64,000 bases of DNA from Solobacterium moorei (GTDB taxonomy: Bacteria; Bacillota_I; Bacilli_A; Erysipelotrichales; Erysipelotrichaceae), in NCBI RefSeq assembly GCF_036323475.1, contig NZ_AP028934.1:806001-870000 (forward strand), in the 5' to 3' direction. Shown in pieces: positions 20,852-27,885 of the stretch. Numbering within the stretch: position 1 is the stretch's first letter; each line of letters starts with the position of its first letter. Position numbers and translations under genes: made by a program. The notes below the pieces were generated by a model. That model was not told the DNA's origin. It searched no databases and saw only the letters and a program-made list of their open reading frames with translations.

Positions 20852-22006
20852 CTAATAAGTAATAATGTCTTTTAAGCCTTCGCTTGCTACAACGTAATAG
20901 CCGTTTGTTTCTTTACCATCACCTTGTTTCTTTGCTGGATCCATGACCCATACTGCATTTGCTTTTTTGCCAGTTGCTTTCTTGTAAGCTTCAAGTACTT
21001 TCTTTCCATCTTCGATGGAGAGTGTAAATAGTGTTGTACTTAAGCAATCAGCTACACCAGAATCTTCTGTGAAGATGGTGACACTACGGTAATGCGTAGC
21101 AGGATAATTTGTGGATGGATCAATAATGTGGTGATAACTATTACCATCTGTTGCGATATAGAAGCGCTCATAGTCTCCGCTTGTAACAAAGGAGAAGGAG
21201 CCTTTGGAAGAGATTAGCGCAAGACCATTCGGTAAAGCGCCTTCAGGATCGGCAATACCCACATTCCATGTATTTCCATCAGGTTTATCATTCACTGTAC
21301 GAATGTTTCTACCAACATTGAAGTAACCTGCTTGCATATGTTGACCTACTTCTTCAGCAACTAATTCGGTCGCATATCCTTTTGCAATACCACCAACATC
21401 GAATGACTGACATGGTTGTGTGATATATACTGTGCTTTCTTCATCGTTAATTACAACGTTATCCCAACCCTTACAACCTGCAGCTTGTGTAAGTTCTTCC
21501 TCTGGTGGAAGATTGCCAAGCTGTTTTTCGGCGTTGAGTTTAATACCTTCTTCACGATACTTATGCCAAACCTTAAGAAGGGCGCCCATGGTAATATCAA
21601 ATTCACCATTGGAATAATCGTAGAACGCTTTTGCCATATGCAACATGTCAATAATTGGCTTATCAACCTTGACTGGTTTGATACCAGCGTTATCATTGAC
21701 TGTCTTTAGGTTATTGATACCATCGTAGTCGTTATAAATATCAAATAATTGGTTGTAATAACGAAGTAGGATAGTGCTGTCCTTAAAATGAGTGGCTGCA
21801 GAATCTGTATTTGTTGTATATTCCATGTAACTATAGATTGTATCGAAACCTACATCAGAACTCACATTTTCATATTTGGCTAGGGTTTCACTGTTGTTTG
21901 AAGTGTTGTTAGAAGTGCTGTTTTTACTCTCTTTTGTTGTACAGCCAGCAAGTAGTGTACAAACGCTTAATGTGCTAACTAATAATTTTGTAATTTTTCT
22001 TTTCAT
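20852..22006 (-). CDS. apbE: FAD:protein FMN transferase, lipoprotein form
   Basis: 384 residues. Lipobox LLAGC near residue 22 places it on the outer membrane face. ApbE attaches FMN to threonine in S/T-GAT motifs of Rnf and Nqr subunits. DVGGIAKGYATELV and the C-terminal VADCLSTTLF motif are visible. A segment normally near NLGGN reads NVGRN. It is transcribed away from the rnf operon from a shared intergenic region, and its substrates are probably RnfD and RnfG. Confidence 0.93.
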   Translation of the reverse strand: MKRKITKLLVSTLSVCTLLAGCTTKESKNSTSNNTSNNSETLAKYENVSSDVGFDTIYSYMEYTTNTDSAATHFKDSTILLRYYNQLFDIYNDYDGINNLKTVNDNAGIKPVKVDKPIIDMLHMAKAFYDYSNGEFDITMGALLKVWHKYREEGIKLNAEKQLGNLPPEEELTQAAGCKGWDNVVINDEESTVYITQPCQSFDVGGIAKGYATELVAEEVGQHMQAGYFNVGRNIRTVNDKPDGNTWNVGIADPEGALPNGLALISSKGSFSFVTSGDYERFYIATDGNSYHHIIDPSTNYPATHYRSVTIFTEDSGVADCLSTTLFTLSIEDGKKVLEAYKKATGKKANAVWVMDPAKKQGDGKETNGYYVVASEGLKDIITY

Positions 22007-22061: not shown

Positions 22062-22097
22062 TCTGAATGATTTCAAATGAGGAAAGGAAAGAAAATT

Positions 22098-23405
22098 ATG
22101 TCAATATTTACAGGACCAATGAAGCTTCATTTAAATGGACATAAGGATTGGACACTTCATAAAGAAGTATTGAAGTCTATCGATCCAGATGTTGTTTGGA
22201 TTCCACTTGTAAACGGTGCTGCCCCATGTCAACCACTTGTTCAAGTTGGAGATGAAGTTAAGATTGGACAAAAGATAGCAGAAAGAAATGATGCATTCTA
22301 TTTACCACTCTTTGCGTCTGTTTCAGGTACTGTTACAGGTATCGAAAAGTTCTTGGGTGCAGGTGGTACAATGATTGACCATTTACGTATTCAAAATGAT
22401 CACAAGCATACAGTAGAACGTGCGTTTGCGAAATTTGATTATGAAAAGGCTAGCTGGCAGGAATTACATGCATTCGCCAAGGATTCCGGTATGCTTGGTT
22501 TAGGTGGTGCTGGATTTCCGTCTTATGTAAAGTATAACAAGCCAGAGAATGTTGACCTCTTTATCGTTAATGCGGTTGAGTGTGAACCATTCTTAACATC
22601 AGATTATAAAAATATTGAAGAAAACATGGACTTACTCAAGATAGGTACACTTGCGTTCTTCAAGATGAGTAATGCAAAGGCTGGTTGTGTCGCAATCAAG
22701 GAAGATAAGAAGGAACAGATTGCCCAATTACAAGAAACCTTTAAGGGAACACCAATTGAGGTGCGTATCGTTCCTAACGTTTACCCAATGGGTTGGGAAA
22801 GAGCGCTTGTATACCAGTTAACAAAGAAGCGTTATGACAGATTGCCGATCGAAGCAGGTTGTATTGTTAACAACGCATCTACAGCGATTGCATTTGGTAA
22901 TGCGATTGTAAATGGTATGCCAGTTACACATAAGTACTTAACTGTATCCGGTGATGCGGTTAAGAATCCACAGAATGTATATGTTCCTGTTGGAACAAAG
23001 GTACATGAGATTATCGACGCTGTTGGTGGATATAAAGATGGTGTGGATGATGTAGTGTTACTCGCTGGTGGACCAATGATGGGCCGTGCAGTTCCTAACG
23101 ATCAATTCGTAGTAATGGCACAGAACAATGGTCTTACAATTCAGAAGTATGAAAAGCCAGATACAGTTGCTTGTTTACGTTGTGGACGTTGTACGGAAAC
23201 ATGTCCATCTGGATTACAACCAGTACGTATCGCTTCTGAACATAAGTCTGTAGACTATGATACATTAATGCGTTTGGATGTAATGAACTGTATTGAATGC
23301 GGTCTATGTACATATGTATGTCCATCTAAGATTGAAGTAACTGAGAATGTTAGACGTGCAAAGACATTTGTGCGTGCAAAACTAGCATCACAGGCAAAGA
23401 AATAG
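22098..23405 (+). CDS. rnfC: Rnf complex subunit RnfC
   Basis: 435-residue NADH-side subunit of the ion-translocating ferredoxin:NAD+ oxidoreductase. Glycine-rich LGLGGAGFPSYVK motif near 134-146 for NADH/flavin binding, and two 4Fe-4S motifs (CLRCGRCTETCP and CIECGLCTYVCP) near 365-410. GAGGAAAGG selects ATG 22098. First gene of the operon. Confidence 0.96.
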   Translation: MSIFTGPMKLHLNGHKDWTLHKEVLKSIDPDVVWIPLVNGAAPCQPLVQVGDEVKIGQKIAERNDAFYLPLFASVSGTVTGIEKFLGAGGTMIDHLRIQNDHKHTVERAFAKFDYEKASWQELHAFAKDSGMLGLGGAGFPSYVKYNKPENVDLFIVNAVECEPFLTSDYKNIEENMDLLKIGTLAFFKMSNAKAGCVAIKEDKKEQIAQLQETFKGTPIEVRIVPNVYPMGWERALVYQLTKKRYDRLPIEAGCIVNNASTAIAFGNAIVNGMPVTHKYLTVSGDAVKNPQNVYVPVGTKVHEIIDAVGGYKDGVDDVVLLAGGPMMGRAVPNDQFVVMAQNNGLTIQKYEKPDTVACLRCGRCTETCPSGLQPVRIASEHKSVDYDTLMRLDVMNCIECGLCTYVCPSKIEVTENVRRAKTFVRAKLASQAKK

Positions 23406-23417
23406 GAGGCAGGAAAA

Positions 23418-25214
23418 ATGAAATTTTCATATAAAGTAGCGCCTAACTATGCGGCTAAACAATCCACAACAGGTATTATGTTGGAACTTAGCTTAGCTTT
23501 GGTTGTTGTGACAGTTGCTTCTGCAATCTGGTATGGAATGACAGGCGGTGCTGAATTAGGTATTCGTGTTATTCTACTATCTATCGCTGCTGTAGTAACT
23601 GCATTGTGTACTGAAACATTGTACTTACTTGCAAGAAAGAAAAAGGACATCGCAAAAGAATTGTTACATTCCTATGGTTGGGTAACAGGTTTAATTATTC
23701 CATTAATTACAAGAATTAATGTTAGTTTCTACGCAATTATTATTGCGACTGCAATTGCAATCTTGTTTGGTAAGATGTTATTTGGTGGATTTGGTCAAAA
23801 CATTTTTAACCCAGCAGCATTTGCTGAGGCAATTATCATGAACTCATTTAGTGCAAGTGTTGCAGCTGATATTCAAACAGGTGCTACACCATTAGCAGCT
23901 ATGAAGTCGTATGGTTGGGTAGTTGATGGCAGTGCATTACAAAATGTATTAGGTCAATTTGGCAACTTATCCGGCATGTTCTTAGGAAACTATCAGAGTG
24001 CTATCGGTGGATCATGTGCATTATTATTAATTCTCGTGGCAGTATATCTCATTGCTAGACGTATTATTGACTATCGTTTAACAGTGACGTATATCGTAAC
24101 AGTATTCGTGGTATCTCTTATTGTTGGTTTGATGCATGGTGCAGGCATTGAATACGCAATCGTTAACGTATTAATGGGTGGGGTATTATTCGCTGGCGTG
24201 TTCATGTTAACAGACCCAGTTACTTCACCAGTATCAATCCCTGGTAGATATGTTTTTGCAGTAGGTGCCGCAGCTCTTACATTGATTATCCGATGGAAGT
24301 CTAACTTACCAGATGGTGCGTTATTCTCCATCTTGATTATGAATATGCTAACGCCTGCAATTGATCAGTTACTTGATGGAAGCCAGATTAAGGATGCAGC
24401 AAAGATTGCACGTAAGGCGGTTATCGCAATGTGTGTATTCTTAATAGCAGTTCTTCTTGTTGGATCAAGTTTAGTAGCAAAGACTCCAGCAGCTGCTGAA
24501 GAACCTAAGAAGGACGATAAGCCAGTGGAAACAGTAGCATTAAGTGCAGAAGACTATAGCGAAAATAACGCAGAGTGCACAGAAACAAGTAATGATGGTG
24601 CAACTGCAGTATATGCATGTAAGGCAAAGGGATTTGAAGGTGTTAACGAAGCTACAGTTACAATTGATGTAGCGAAGAAGACAGTTGTATCCATTGCGGT
24701 TATTAAGTTTAGTGATACGGAAGAGGTTGGTGATCAAGCTACTACAGAAGAACAACTTAAGAAATATGTTGGTGCAACTGCAGATAGTAAGATTGATTCA
24801 ACAACAGGAGCAACATTTACAAGTAAGTCACTACGTGCAATGATTGCGAAGGTATTAAAGTCTGCTTCCGCAGTAGCATTAGGTAAAGAAGATTTTAAAG
24901 AAAACAAAGCAGAATGTTCAGAAACAAGTAATGATGGCACAATCGCTGTCTATGCATGTAAGGCACATGGCTTTGAAGGTGTAAACGAAGCAACAGTTAC
25001 AGTAGATATAGCTAGCAAGTCCGTCAAGAGTATCGAAGTAACAAAGTTTAGCGATACAGAAGACGTAGGCGACCAAGCAACAAAAGCAGCTGAGTTAGAT
25101 AAGTACAAGGGAGTAACACTCGAAAGTAAAGTGGACTCTACAACAGGAGCAACATTTACAAGTACATCACTCAGAGCGATGATTACAACAGCCCTACAGG
25201 CTGCAACAAAGTAA
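23418..25214 (+). CDS. rnfD: RnfD fused to two C-terminal FMN-binding domains
   Basis: Residues 1 to about 355 form the membrane subunit RnfD, with about nine spans and the flavinylation motif TGATPLA near 156. RnfD normally ends there. Here a linker is followed by two FMN_bind-like domains (about 374-485 and 490-598). Each has a Cys-x(n)-Cys pair (AEC...YAC) and the motif DSTTGATFTS, a typical covalent FMN site. The two domains are roughly 70% alike, and the second is identical at the DNA level to the end of rnfG. AGGAGGC precedes the start. Confidence 0.93.
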   Translation: MKFSYKVAPNYAAKQSTTGIMLELSLALVVVTVASAIWYGMTGGAELGIRVILLSIAAVVTALCTETLYLLARKKKDIAKELLHSYGWVTGLIIPLITRINVSFYAIIIATAIAILFGKMLFGGFGQNIFNPAAFAEAIIMNSFSASVAADIQTGATPLAAMKSYGWVVDGSALQNVLGQFGNLSGMFLGNYQSAIGGSCALLLILVAVYLIARRIIDYRLTVTYIVTVFVVSLIVGLMHGAGIEYAIVNVLMGGVLFAGVFMLTDPVTSPVSIPGRYVFAVGAAALTLIIRWKSNLPDGALFSILIMNMLTPAIDQLLDGSQIKDAAKIARKAVIAMCVFLIAVLLVGSSLVAKTPAAAEEPKKDDKPVETVALSAEDYSENNAECTETSNDGATAVYACKAKGFEGVNEATVTIDVAKKTVVSIAVIKFSDTEEVGDQATTEEQLKKYVGATADSKIDSTTGATFTSKSLRAMIAKVLKSASAVALGKEDFKENKAECSETSNDGTIAVYACKAHGFEGVNEATVTVDIASKSVKSIEVTKFSDTEDVGDQATKAAELDKYKGVTLESKVDSTTGATFTSTSLRAMITTALQAATK

Positions 25215-25216
25215 GG
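24897..25216 (+). repeat. 320-bp direct repeat, copy 1 (end of rnfD)
   Basis: Base-for-base identical, by reading, to 25845-26164. It covers most of one FMN-binding domain, the stop codon and the next GG. The copies are 948 bp apart in the same orientation. Confidence 0.95.
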
Positions 25217-25226
25217 GGGTGCTCGT

Positions 25227-26162
25227 ATGAAAATTGATAAGACTTCAGGAGTATATAAAGCATGCATGCTTGGTATTCTCTGTGCTGTATGTGGAATTCT
25301 ACTATCAACAGTAAATGCGATTACCGCTCCTATTATTGAAGAAAACGCATTGGCATCTGTTAAGTCATCGCTTGAAATAATTTATCCAGGAGCAACATTT
25401 ACAGATGTTACAGAAGACAAGATTGGTCTTCTTGAATTAAAAGATGGTGAAGATACTCTCATCGATGGTATTTACAACGCTGAAGGTAAGGGAACGATCT
25501 TTACATTACATTCTACGGGTTATAACGCCGATGGATTTAAGTTTATGATTGCGTATAACAATGATGGCTCCATTGGTGGATATAGTGTGCTAGAACAAGC
25601 TGAAACAGCTGGTAAGGGTGATAAGGCATTTAAGGATCCATATGTAAGTGATGTATTAAAACTTACCTCTTCTGATACAATGCCACTCATCACTGGTGCA
25701 ACAATTACAACTACTGCAGTGGGGAAAGCGGTTGATCAAGCTAGACAAGTATTCAATAAGATGAATAACATCTCTTACGATGAAAATGCGACAGCTACAC
25801 CTGCTCCAAAAGCAGAGCCTGTTGAACTAGCAAAGGAAGACTTCAAAGAAAACAAAGCAGAATGTTCAGAAACAAGTAATGATGGCACAATCGCTGTCTA
25901 TGCATGTAAGGCACATGGCTTTGAAGGTGTAAACGAAGCAACAGTTACAGTAGATATAGCTAGCAAGTCCGTCAAGAGTATCGAAGTAACAAAGTTTAGC
26001 GATACAGAAGACGTAGGCGACCAAGCAACAAAAGCAGCTGAGTTAGATAAGTACAAGGGAGTAACACTCGAAAGTAAAGTGGACTCTACAACAGGAGCAA
26101 CATTTACAAGTACATCACTCAGAGCGATGATTACAACAGCCCTACAGGCTGCAACAAAGTAA
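25227..26162 (+). CDS. rnfG: RnfG with an extra C-terminal FMN-binding domain
   Basis: 311 residues. The N-terminal membrane anchor and first FMN domain (to about 175, flavinylation motif ITGATIT) are ordinary RnfG. A Thr/Pro/Ala linker (about 188-200) leads to a second FMN domain with DSTTGATFTS, identical to the RnfD terminal domain. Its linker and flanks differ from those of rnfD, so the repeat edges are sharp. Confidence 0.94.
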   Translation: MKIDKTSGVYKACMLGILCAVCGILLSTVNAITAPIIEENALASVKSSLEIIYPGATFTDVTEDKIGLLELKDGEDTLIDGIYNAEGKGTIFTLHSTGYNADGFKFMIAYNNDGSIGGYSVLEQAETAGKGDKAFKDPYVSDVLKLTSSDTMPLITGATITTTAVGKAVDQARQVFNKMNNISYDENATATPAPKAEPVELAKEDFKENKAECSETSNDGTIAVYACKAHGFEGVNEATVTVDIASKSVKSIEVTKFSDTEDVGDQATKAAELDKYKGVTLESKVDSTTGATFTSTSLRAMITTALQAATK

Positions 26163-26164
26163 GG
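25845..26164 (+). repeat. 320-bp direct repeat, copy 2 (end of rnfG)
   Basis: Identical to 24897-25216. Silent positions match as well, so the copies are recent or kept alike by gene conversion. Confidence 0.95.
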
Positions 26165-26172
26165 AGGAAGGT

Positions 26173-26835
26173 ATGAGCGAAAAGAAAATTAAAGGTCAAG
26201 GCTTCTTCTCTAGATTAGCAACAGAGAACCCAGTATTTGCAACTTACTTAGGTATCTGTTCAACATTAGCAATCACAACAAGCTTAAATAGTGCAATCGG
26301 TATGGGTGTTGCGGTAATTGTTGTATTAACTTTATCCAACATCTTAGTATCGTTAATTGCTCCAATCACGCCAGATGATATTCATATTCCAGTGTATATC
26401 GTTATTATTGCGACATTAGTTACTATCGTTTCGATGTTTATGCATGCATACACACCAAGTCTATTTACAGCTTTAGGTGCATTCTTAGACTTAGTTGTTG
26501 TAAATTGTATTATCTTAGGACGTGCCGAAGCATACGCATGCAAGCACACAGTGCTTGAATCAATCGTTGATGGATTACAACAGGGTTGTGCTTACACATT
26601 CGCACTTCTTGCAATGTCACTTATCAGACAGTTATTAGGTACTGGTGGGTTATCTTTCTCAAATCCATTTACAAACAACGTTGTATTTGCATTCAGAATT
26701 ATTCCAGAAGGATTTGAAATTCCAATGTTCACAGAGCAGTTTGGTGCATTTATCACATTTGCATGTTTAGCTGCTGGTGTAGCTACTTACAAGAACCATC
26801 TTGTAAAGCCAGCGAAGAAAGGAGCTGCTAAATAA
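26173..26835 (+). CDS. rnfE: Rnf complex subunit RnfE
   Basis: 220-residue membrane subunit with six predicted spans. It resembles RnfE/NqrD (NPVFATYLGICSTLAITTSL, VVNCIILGRAEAYA). The stop overlaps the rnfA start. Confidence 0.94.
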   Translation: MSEKKIKGQGFFSRLATENPVFATYLGICSTLAITTSLNSAIGMGVAVIVVLTLSNILVSLIAPITPDDIHIPVYIVIIATLVTIVSMFMHAYTPSLFTALGAFLDLVVVNCIILGRAEAYACKHTVLESIVDGLQQGCAYTFALLAMSLIRQLLGTGGLSFSNPFTNNVVFAFRIIPEGFEIPMFTEQFGAFITFACLAAGVATYKNHLVKPAKKGAAK

Positions 26836-27407
26836 TGAATTTATTTACACTCTTGATCAGTGGATTACTGATTAACAATATTATTCTTACAAAGTTCTTA
26901 GGTATGTGCCCATTTATGGGAGTATCTACAAAACTTGAATCTGCAGTAGGTATGGGTTTTGCTGTTATCTTTGTTATCTTCGGTGCATCCATTCTTGCAT
27001 GGGGACTTTATCACTTTATCTTGGTTCCATTTGAACTAGAGTTTATGGAACTAATCTGTTTCATCTTATTGATTGCAGCATTCGTTCAGTTCGTTGAACT
27101 GTTCGTTAAAAAGTTCTCACCAGAGCTTTATAAGTCATTAGGTATCTACTTACCACTCATTACAACAAACTGTGCAGTACTTTACGTAGCAATGGATAAC
27201 ATTACCCAGAAGTATACATTAGCACAAACGATGGTAAATTCTATTGCAGTACCTGCTGGCTTTATGATGATGCTAGTTATCTTTGCGACAATCCGCAAAC
27301 GTTTAAATCAGAACGATATTCCGAAGGCATTCCAGGGCAATCCTATCGCTTTCATCTGTGCAGCAATTATGGCAATTGCATTCTCTGCATTTGCTGGATT
27401 AGTATAA
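26835..27407 (+). CDS. rnfA: Rnf complex subunit RnfA
   Basis: 190-residue membrane subunit with six spans and inverted topology relative to RnfE. LLINNIILTKFLGMCPFMGVS and LPLITTNCAVLYVA carry the conserved cysteines that hold the intramembrane Fe-S centre in the RnfA/RnfE pair. Confidence 0.95.
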   Translation: MNLFTLLISGLLINNIILTKFLGMCPFMGVSTKLESAVGMGFAVIFVIFGASILAWGLYHFILVPFELEFMELICFILLIAAFVQFVELFVKKFSPELYKSLGIYLPLITTNCAVLYVAMDNITQKYTLAQTMVNSIAVPAGFMMMLVIFATIRKRLNQNDIPKAFQGNPIAFICAAIMAIAFSAFAGLV

Positions 27408-27412
27408 GAGCC

Positions 27413-27598
27413 GTGCTTAGAATCGTTGTTGCGGCTTTATTAGCTGTAGGTTTCTTTGCCCTAAATGTATGGCTATTAAGGTTAAATCAGAAAACACCAA
27501 AGCCTGAAGGCTGCGAAGACCTAAAGGCAGAGTGTTCTGCATGTGGTATCAGCGAATGTTGTGTTCGCCAAGCACCACACAAAACAGAGGAGGAATAA
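27413..27598 (+). CDS. Small cysteine-rich membrane protein inside the rnf operon
   Basis: 61 residues from GTG 27413. Residues 1-20 form one membrane span; the tail has a cysteine cluster (CEDLKAECSACGISECC). It starts 5 bases after rnfA and its TAA shares a base with the rnfB ATG, so it is translated with the operon. I know no established family for it. It may bind metal or a cluster next to the short RnfB. Confidence 0.75.
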   Translation: MLRIVVAALLAVGFFALNVWLLRLNQKTPKPEGCEDLKAECSACGISECCVRQAPHKTEEE

Positions 27599-27885
27599 TG
27601 GTAGTAGCAATTTTAAAAGCTTTTGGCTTGATGTTAGTGTTAGGTGCTGTTTTAGGTGGTATACTGGCATTTGCTTCCGTTAAGTTCTATGTTAAGGAAG
27701 ACAATCGCAAGGAAGAGTTAACAGCCCTATTGCCTGGTTATAATTGCGGTGCTTGTGGTAATCCAGGCTGTGCTGCGATGGCTGTAAAGTTACTTGCTGG
27801 TGAATCACAAGTTGAACAGTGTAAACCAAGTAAGCCAGACCAAAGAGAAGCAATTAAAGCATATCTTGCTGAACATGTAGGTTAA
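27598..27885 (+). CDS. rnfB: Short RnfB lacking the ferredoxin domains
   Basis: 95 residues. N-terminal membrane span, then the first RnfB cluster motif (CGACGNPGCAAMA with a downstream Cys, EQCKPS). Typical RnfB has about 260 or more residues with two further 4Fe-4S ferredoxin modules that take electrons from ferredoxin. Here the frame ends cleanly with TAA and an operon terminator follows, with no ferredoxin-like remnant after it. AGAGGAGG precedes ATG 27598. Confidence 0.88.
   Translation: MVVAILKAFGLMLVLGAVLGGILAFASVKFYVKEDNRKEELTALLPGYNCGACGNPGCAAMAVKLLAGESQVEQCKPSKPDQREAIKAYLAEHVG

Follow-up and report, generated by a model that had tools for sequence, protein, structure and literature searches.

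The window analyzed here, a stretch of 64,000 nucleotides from Solobacterium moorei (contig NZ_AP028934.1), contains an rnf operon on the forward strand. Pfam searches identified rnfC (22077-23405), rnfE (26173-26835) and rnfA (26835-27407), and between rnfC and rnfE lie rnfD (23418-25214, 598 aa) and rnfG (25227-26162, 311 aa), so that the Rnf subunit genes C, D, G, E and A are all present. The operon is adjoined on the reverse strand by apbE (20852-22006), encoding a flavin transferase. Downstream of rnfA is a short rnfB (27598-27885, 95 aa), whose product comprises a TM helix and a PF04060 Fe-S domain and has no Fer4 domains. It keeps the FdI part of C. tetanomorphum RnfB, whereas the two-cluster ferredoxin part is missing, and the same short form (approximately 70-98 aa from the matched start) was found in all 51 genus loci that were measured. 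Between rnfA and rnfB (27413-27598), we also observed a 61-aa ORF with one TM helix and conserved cysteines (like CENLxPDCxACGIxDC), which is present in the eight relatives inspected as well and has no Pfam or NCBIfam match; its product is possibly a small Fe-S subunit. Promoter and terminator scans gave no more matches than expected by chance.

RnfD consists of an NQR2_RnfD core (residues 6-321), an extra hydrophobic helix (residues 335-353, encoded at 24420-24476) and two C-terminal FMN_bind domains, hereafter called tails: a diverged first copy (24534-24872) and a last one (24873-25211). RnfG has a TM anchor, an ordinary FMN_bind core (25458-25742, with the motif TGATIT at 25692-25709) and one extra FMN_bind tail (25821-26159). 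The 310-aa RnfD of C. tetanomorphum aligned with residues 5-317 of the window RnfD only; in that protein ten helices are arranged in two five-helix halves, with both termini cytoplasmic (PMC9588780). The extra helix is strongly hydrophobic, has a counterpart in 98 of 99 relatives, including RnfD proteins that lack tails, and, as an eleventh helix, would place the tails outside the membrane, on the side of RnfG. Its assignment is based on hydropathy and on the C. tetanomorphum alignment because the AlphaFold model of the full RnfD was poor (pLDDT 57).

The identity of the tails was examined by domain, fold and motif. FMN_bind (PF04205) was found by Pfam in both rnfD and rnfG and matched 12/12 aligned tails, and the last tail scored 34.8 bits against a gathering cut-off of 22. 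The AlphaFold model of the tail (pLDDT 78.5) contains four strands and a C-terminal helix. While a phmmer search of the tails against PDB found nothing, a Foldseek search of PDB did, and its top 17 matches were all RnfG or NqrC chains (best TM 0.65 to the query, E 1.4e-3), although the E-values were modest. All three tails in the window carry TGATFT (24804-24821, 25143-25160 and 26091-26108) at the site where FMN is attached in RnfG, and the flavinylation motif S/TGA(S/T)x(T/S) or a close variant was present in 153 of 167 tails. All 12 aligned tails have cysteines at tail residues 15 and 29, but this does not hold for the wider set, where 76/167 tails have two cysteines; a disulfide or a redox pair is possible. 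The genome holds 16 FMN_bind matches, and three other proteins that were checked (L001, L003 and L008) pair FMN_bind with FAD_binding_2, suggesting the presence of several external flavin-linked reductases.

The initial annotation had claimed that the 3' ends of rnfD and rnfG are identical over 320 bp through their stop codons, including silent sites, that the flanks differ, and that a third, diverged copy lies earlier in rnfD. All of this is borne out by exact comparison. Copy A (24897-25216, forward strand), at the end of rnfD, equals copy B (25845-26164, forward strand), at the end of rnfG, with an offset of 948 bp. The repeat starts on a codon boundary in both genes, covers nearly the whole last tail, the TAA stop codon and the following GG, and the sequences differ on either side of it. 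The third copy corresponds to the first RnfD tail and is 73% identical in register (71% at the nucleotide and 72% at the amino acid level by codon alignment). All 52 fourfold-degenerate sites in the 320-bp tract agree between copies A and B. On the other hand, 41-47% of the fourfold sites of rnfC, rnfD, rnfE and rnfA differ between the window and the nearest species (G037), and had the two copies been diverging since the split from that species, the chance of agreement at every site would be approximately 2e-13. A genome-wide search revealed no further DNA copy of the repeat. A mobile element was also considered as its source and ruled out, as there is no other genomic DNA copy and the edges show no element-like features.

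To place the repeat in an evolutionary context, the tails were compared across relatives. Within the genus, RnfD has 0-3 tails and RnfG 0-4, and in the sampled other genera of the family the numbers are 1-3 and 0-2, respectively. Judged from these sequences, the tail layout is old and labile, with tails on RnfD, and often on RnfG, throughout the family; the query of a class-wide search was too divergent to decide how far RnfD tails extend beyond it. Thus, recent domain spread, which had been suggested at first, is not supported as the main event: the tails are old, and what is recent is the identity between the RnfD and RnfG copies. In G039, G018 and G016, RnfG (L098, L099 and L096) reaches approximately 750 aa because four FMN_bind tails follow its single core in tandem.

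The same identity was observed in other lineages. The last RnfD and RnfG tails are 100% identical in G067, 99% in G011 (2 differences in 291), 96% in G034, 95% in G153, which belongs to another genus, and 90% in G012, giving within-genome values of 90-100% in six sampled lineages with the window species included. Silent sites follow the same pattern, with identity at 56/56 fourfold sites in G067 and 45/45 in G011. Between species, however, these homogenized tails differ by approximately 27-41%. The cleanest case is provided by G067 and G012, which share a layout of two RnfD tails and one RnfG tail: the identity of the last tails is 100% inside G067 and 90% inside G012, but only 71-73% between the two. 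Many genomes hold unconverted pairs with 48-70% identity, and homogenization is therefore intermittent. Among 20 genomes with a choice of tails, the closest RnfD/RnfG pair was last-with-last in 15 (8.6 expected). In five genomes (G000, G067, G012, G011 and G034) the tract opens close to where the last domain begins, continues past the stop codon and ends in the Shine-Dalgarno sequence.

In the phylogenetic tree of the tails, RnfD tails pair with RnfG tails by genome and not by gene, whereas upstream tails stay orthologous (e.g., the first RnfD tails of G067, G055, G012 and G058), and the ordinary RnfG core domains form a clade separate from the tails. A joint RnfG alignment was left unused because it had mis-aligned cores onto the tail. 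A clade of RnfD tails was rejected by the AU test (p-AU 7e-39), although the size of the likelihood difference is to be read loosely given an alignment of only 112 columns. The homogenized genomes occupy separate places on the tree of the RnfD core, RnfE and RnfA. In G037, G058 and G055, the contig ends within the last RnfD tail and the rnfG core is absent from the assembly; such breaks are a mark of an unresolved near-identical repeat and suggest that these genomes are homogenized as well.

Considering these data, it is very probable that the terminal FMN_bind domains of RnfD and RnfG evolve in concert, being repeatedly homogenized by recombination. The earlier claim of active gene conversion, or of an equivalent recombination process, is thus well supported by identity within genomes together with divergence between them. 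For S. moorei itself, the event would be one read from the comparison across species rather than from a series of strains. An improbable alternative is that the last domain was copied to the other gene once, recently and in the window lineage only, with no ongoing conversion. Silent-site identity would fit any event that postdates the divergence from the nearest species, and the variation in tail number among genomes (0-3 on RnfD and 0-4 on RnfG) indicates that gains and losses do happen. However, the identity of the terminal pair is seen again in no fewer than five other genomes, and G067 and G012, despite their common layout, were homogenized separately, which would require repeated re-duplication at one place. 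It should be mentioned that the outcome would look similar if, in every lineage, one gene end had been replaced by a newly made duplicate of the other.

Two other readings are far less plausible. The identical repeat might have been produced in silico, by duplication of a stretch during assembly or by polishing, which can equalize near-identical repeats. This is hard to reconcile with two in-frame copies separated by approximately 630 bp of unique rnfG sequence in a genome assembled as one contig of 2,615,268 bp, or with the presence of the same pair in G011, another single-contig genome, where it retains two differences, and in G067, where it is perfect; a small number of real differences between the copies could nevertheless have been lost in short-read polishing. 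The explanation to which we give the least weight of all is that selection alone keeps the tails identical, through a common partner or mutual binding. The tails do sit on two subunits of one complex and have the same motif, but selection at the protein level does not hold 52/52 fourfold sites identical, and the sharp ends of the tract in the linker and in the Shine-Dalgarno sequence would be left unexplained.

Concerted evolution of the two terminal domains could proceed as follows. The last domains of RnfD and RnfG are direct repeats with a spacing of 948 bp, and RecA-type recombination between them most likely copies one gene end over the other. The route, which we infer, would be either non-reciprocal conversion or an unequal exchange that duplicates rnfG and is followed by collapse (amplification-collapse). 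The tract typically extends over the domain and its stop codon into the ribosome-binding site. Each of the two genes is directly followed by another Rnf gene that has a ribosome site of its own, so both genes and the operon would come through an exchange of this kind intact. A rather doubtful extension is that the domain, stop codon and Shine-Dalgarno sequence form an exchangeable cassette and that selection keeps the outermost flavin domains of RnfD and RnfG identical, e.g., for docking the same external acceptor.

The initial annotation had also proposed that the repeat could cause deletion of rnfG. A simple deletion between the repeats would indeed remove rnfG and keep rnfD, so the event is possible in principle, but no such loss was observed: rnfG is kept in 50/50 loci of the genus whose rnfD and rnfE share a contig, and outside the genus it was found in 40/40 loci that were read. 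The lack of such deletions among relatives therefore points to selection against them. In addition, short-read assemblies break at the repeat and can lose rnfG, and annotations of a missing rnfG in this group may be artefacts.

With regard to function, the balance of evidence leans slightly toward the tails being extra carriers of covalent FMN outside the membrane that give Rnf a second outlet, in which case they would serve in electron transfer linking the Rnf core to extracellular acceptors. Loading by ApbE, which would attach FMN to the tails, and electron transfer through them are predicted from motif and fold. The FMN_bind/FAD_binding_2 proteins, at least three in number and resembling fumarate-reductase-like enzymes in this pairing, could be partners or acceptors of the tails. 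The data point to a family-wide variant of Rnf whose RnfD and RnfG subunits would both reach out of the cell with flavin arms, a possible route to external acceptors. The locus also provides a clear natural example, repeated across species, of concerted evolution at the level of a domain, the partners being two distinct subunits of the same energy-conserving complex.

FMN_bind, Rnf and RnfG with multiple flavins are already known, as is the concerted evolution of genes in prokaryotes. No account of gene conversion in Rnf turned up in literature searches, and neither FMN_bind tails on RnfD nor homogenization of a terminal domain between two subunits was found in the open-access literature, which is weak evidence for novelty. 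The system of C. tetanomorphum (7zc6; PMC9588780) has in common with the present one the rnfC-D-G-E-A-B gene set and the RnfG and RnfD cores; here, in contrast, RnfD is extended by one more helix and a pair of tails, RnfG bears one tail, and RnfB lacks FdII and FdIII. Meheust et al. (2021, PMC8238504) proposed that multi-flavinylated RnfG offers Rnf a second outlet, to acceptors beyond the cytosol. That study and ours have in common an RnfG encoded in an Rnf cluster and carrying several FMN_bind domains, whereas RnfD tails preceded by an additional TM helix, and homogenization of RnfD and RnfG tails, do not appear in its passages on Rnf, RnfD and RnfG. Wang and Chen (2018, PMC6053082) reported that concerted evolution is recurrent and long-lasting among prokaryotes, with paralogues in energy complexes being closer within a genome than to their orthologues. 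The likeness lies in the within-genome similarity of paralogues in genes of energy complexes. However, that study, whose main text does not contain the word Rnf, deals with whole paralogous genes, whereas here one terminal domain is homogenized between two otherwise unrelated subunits encoded next to each other in the operon.
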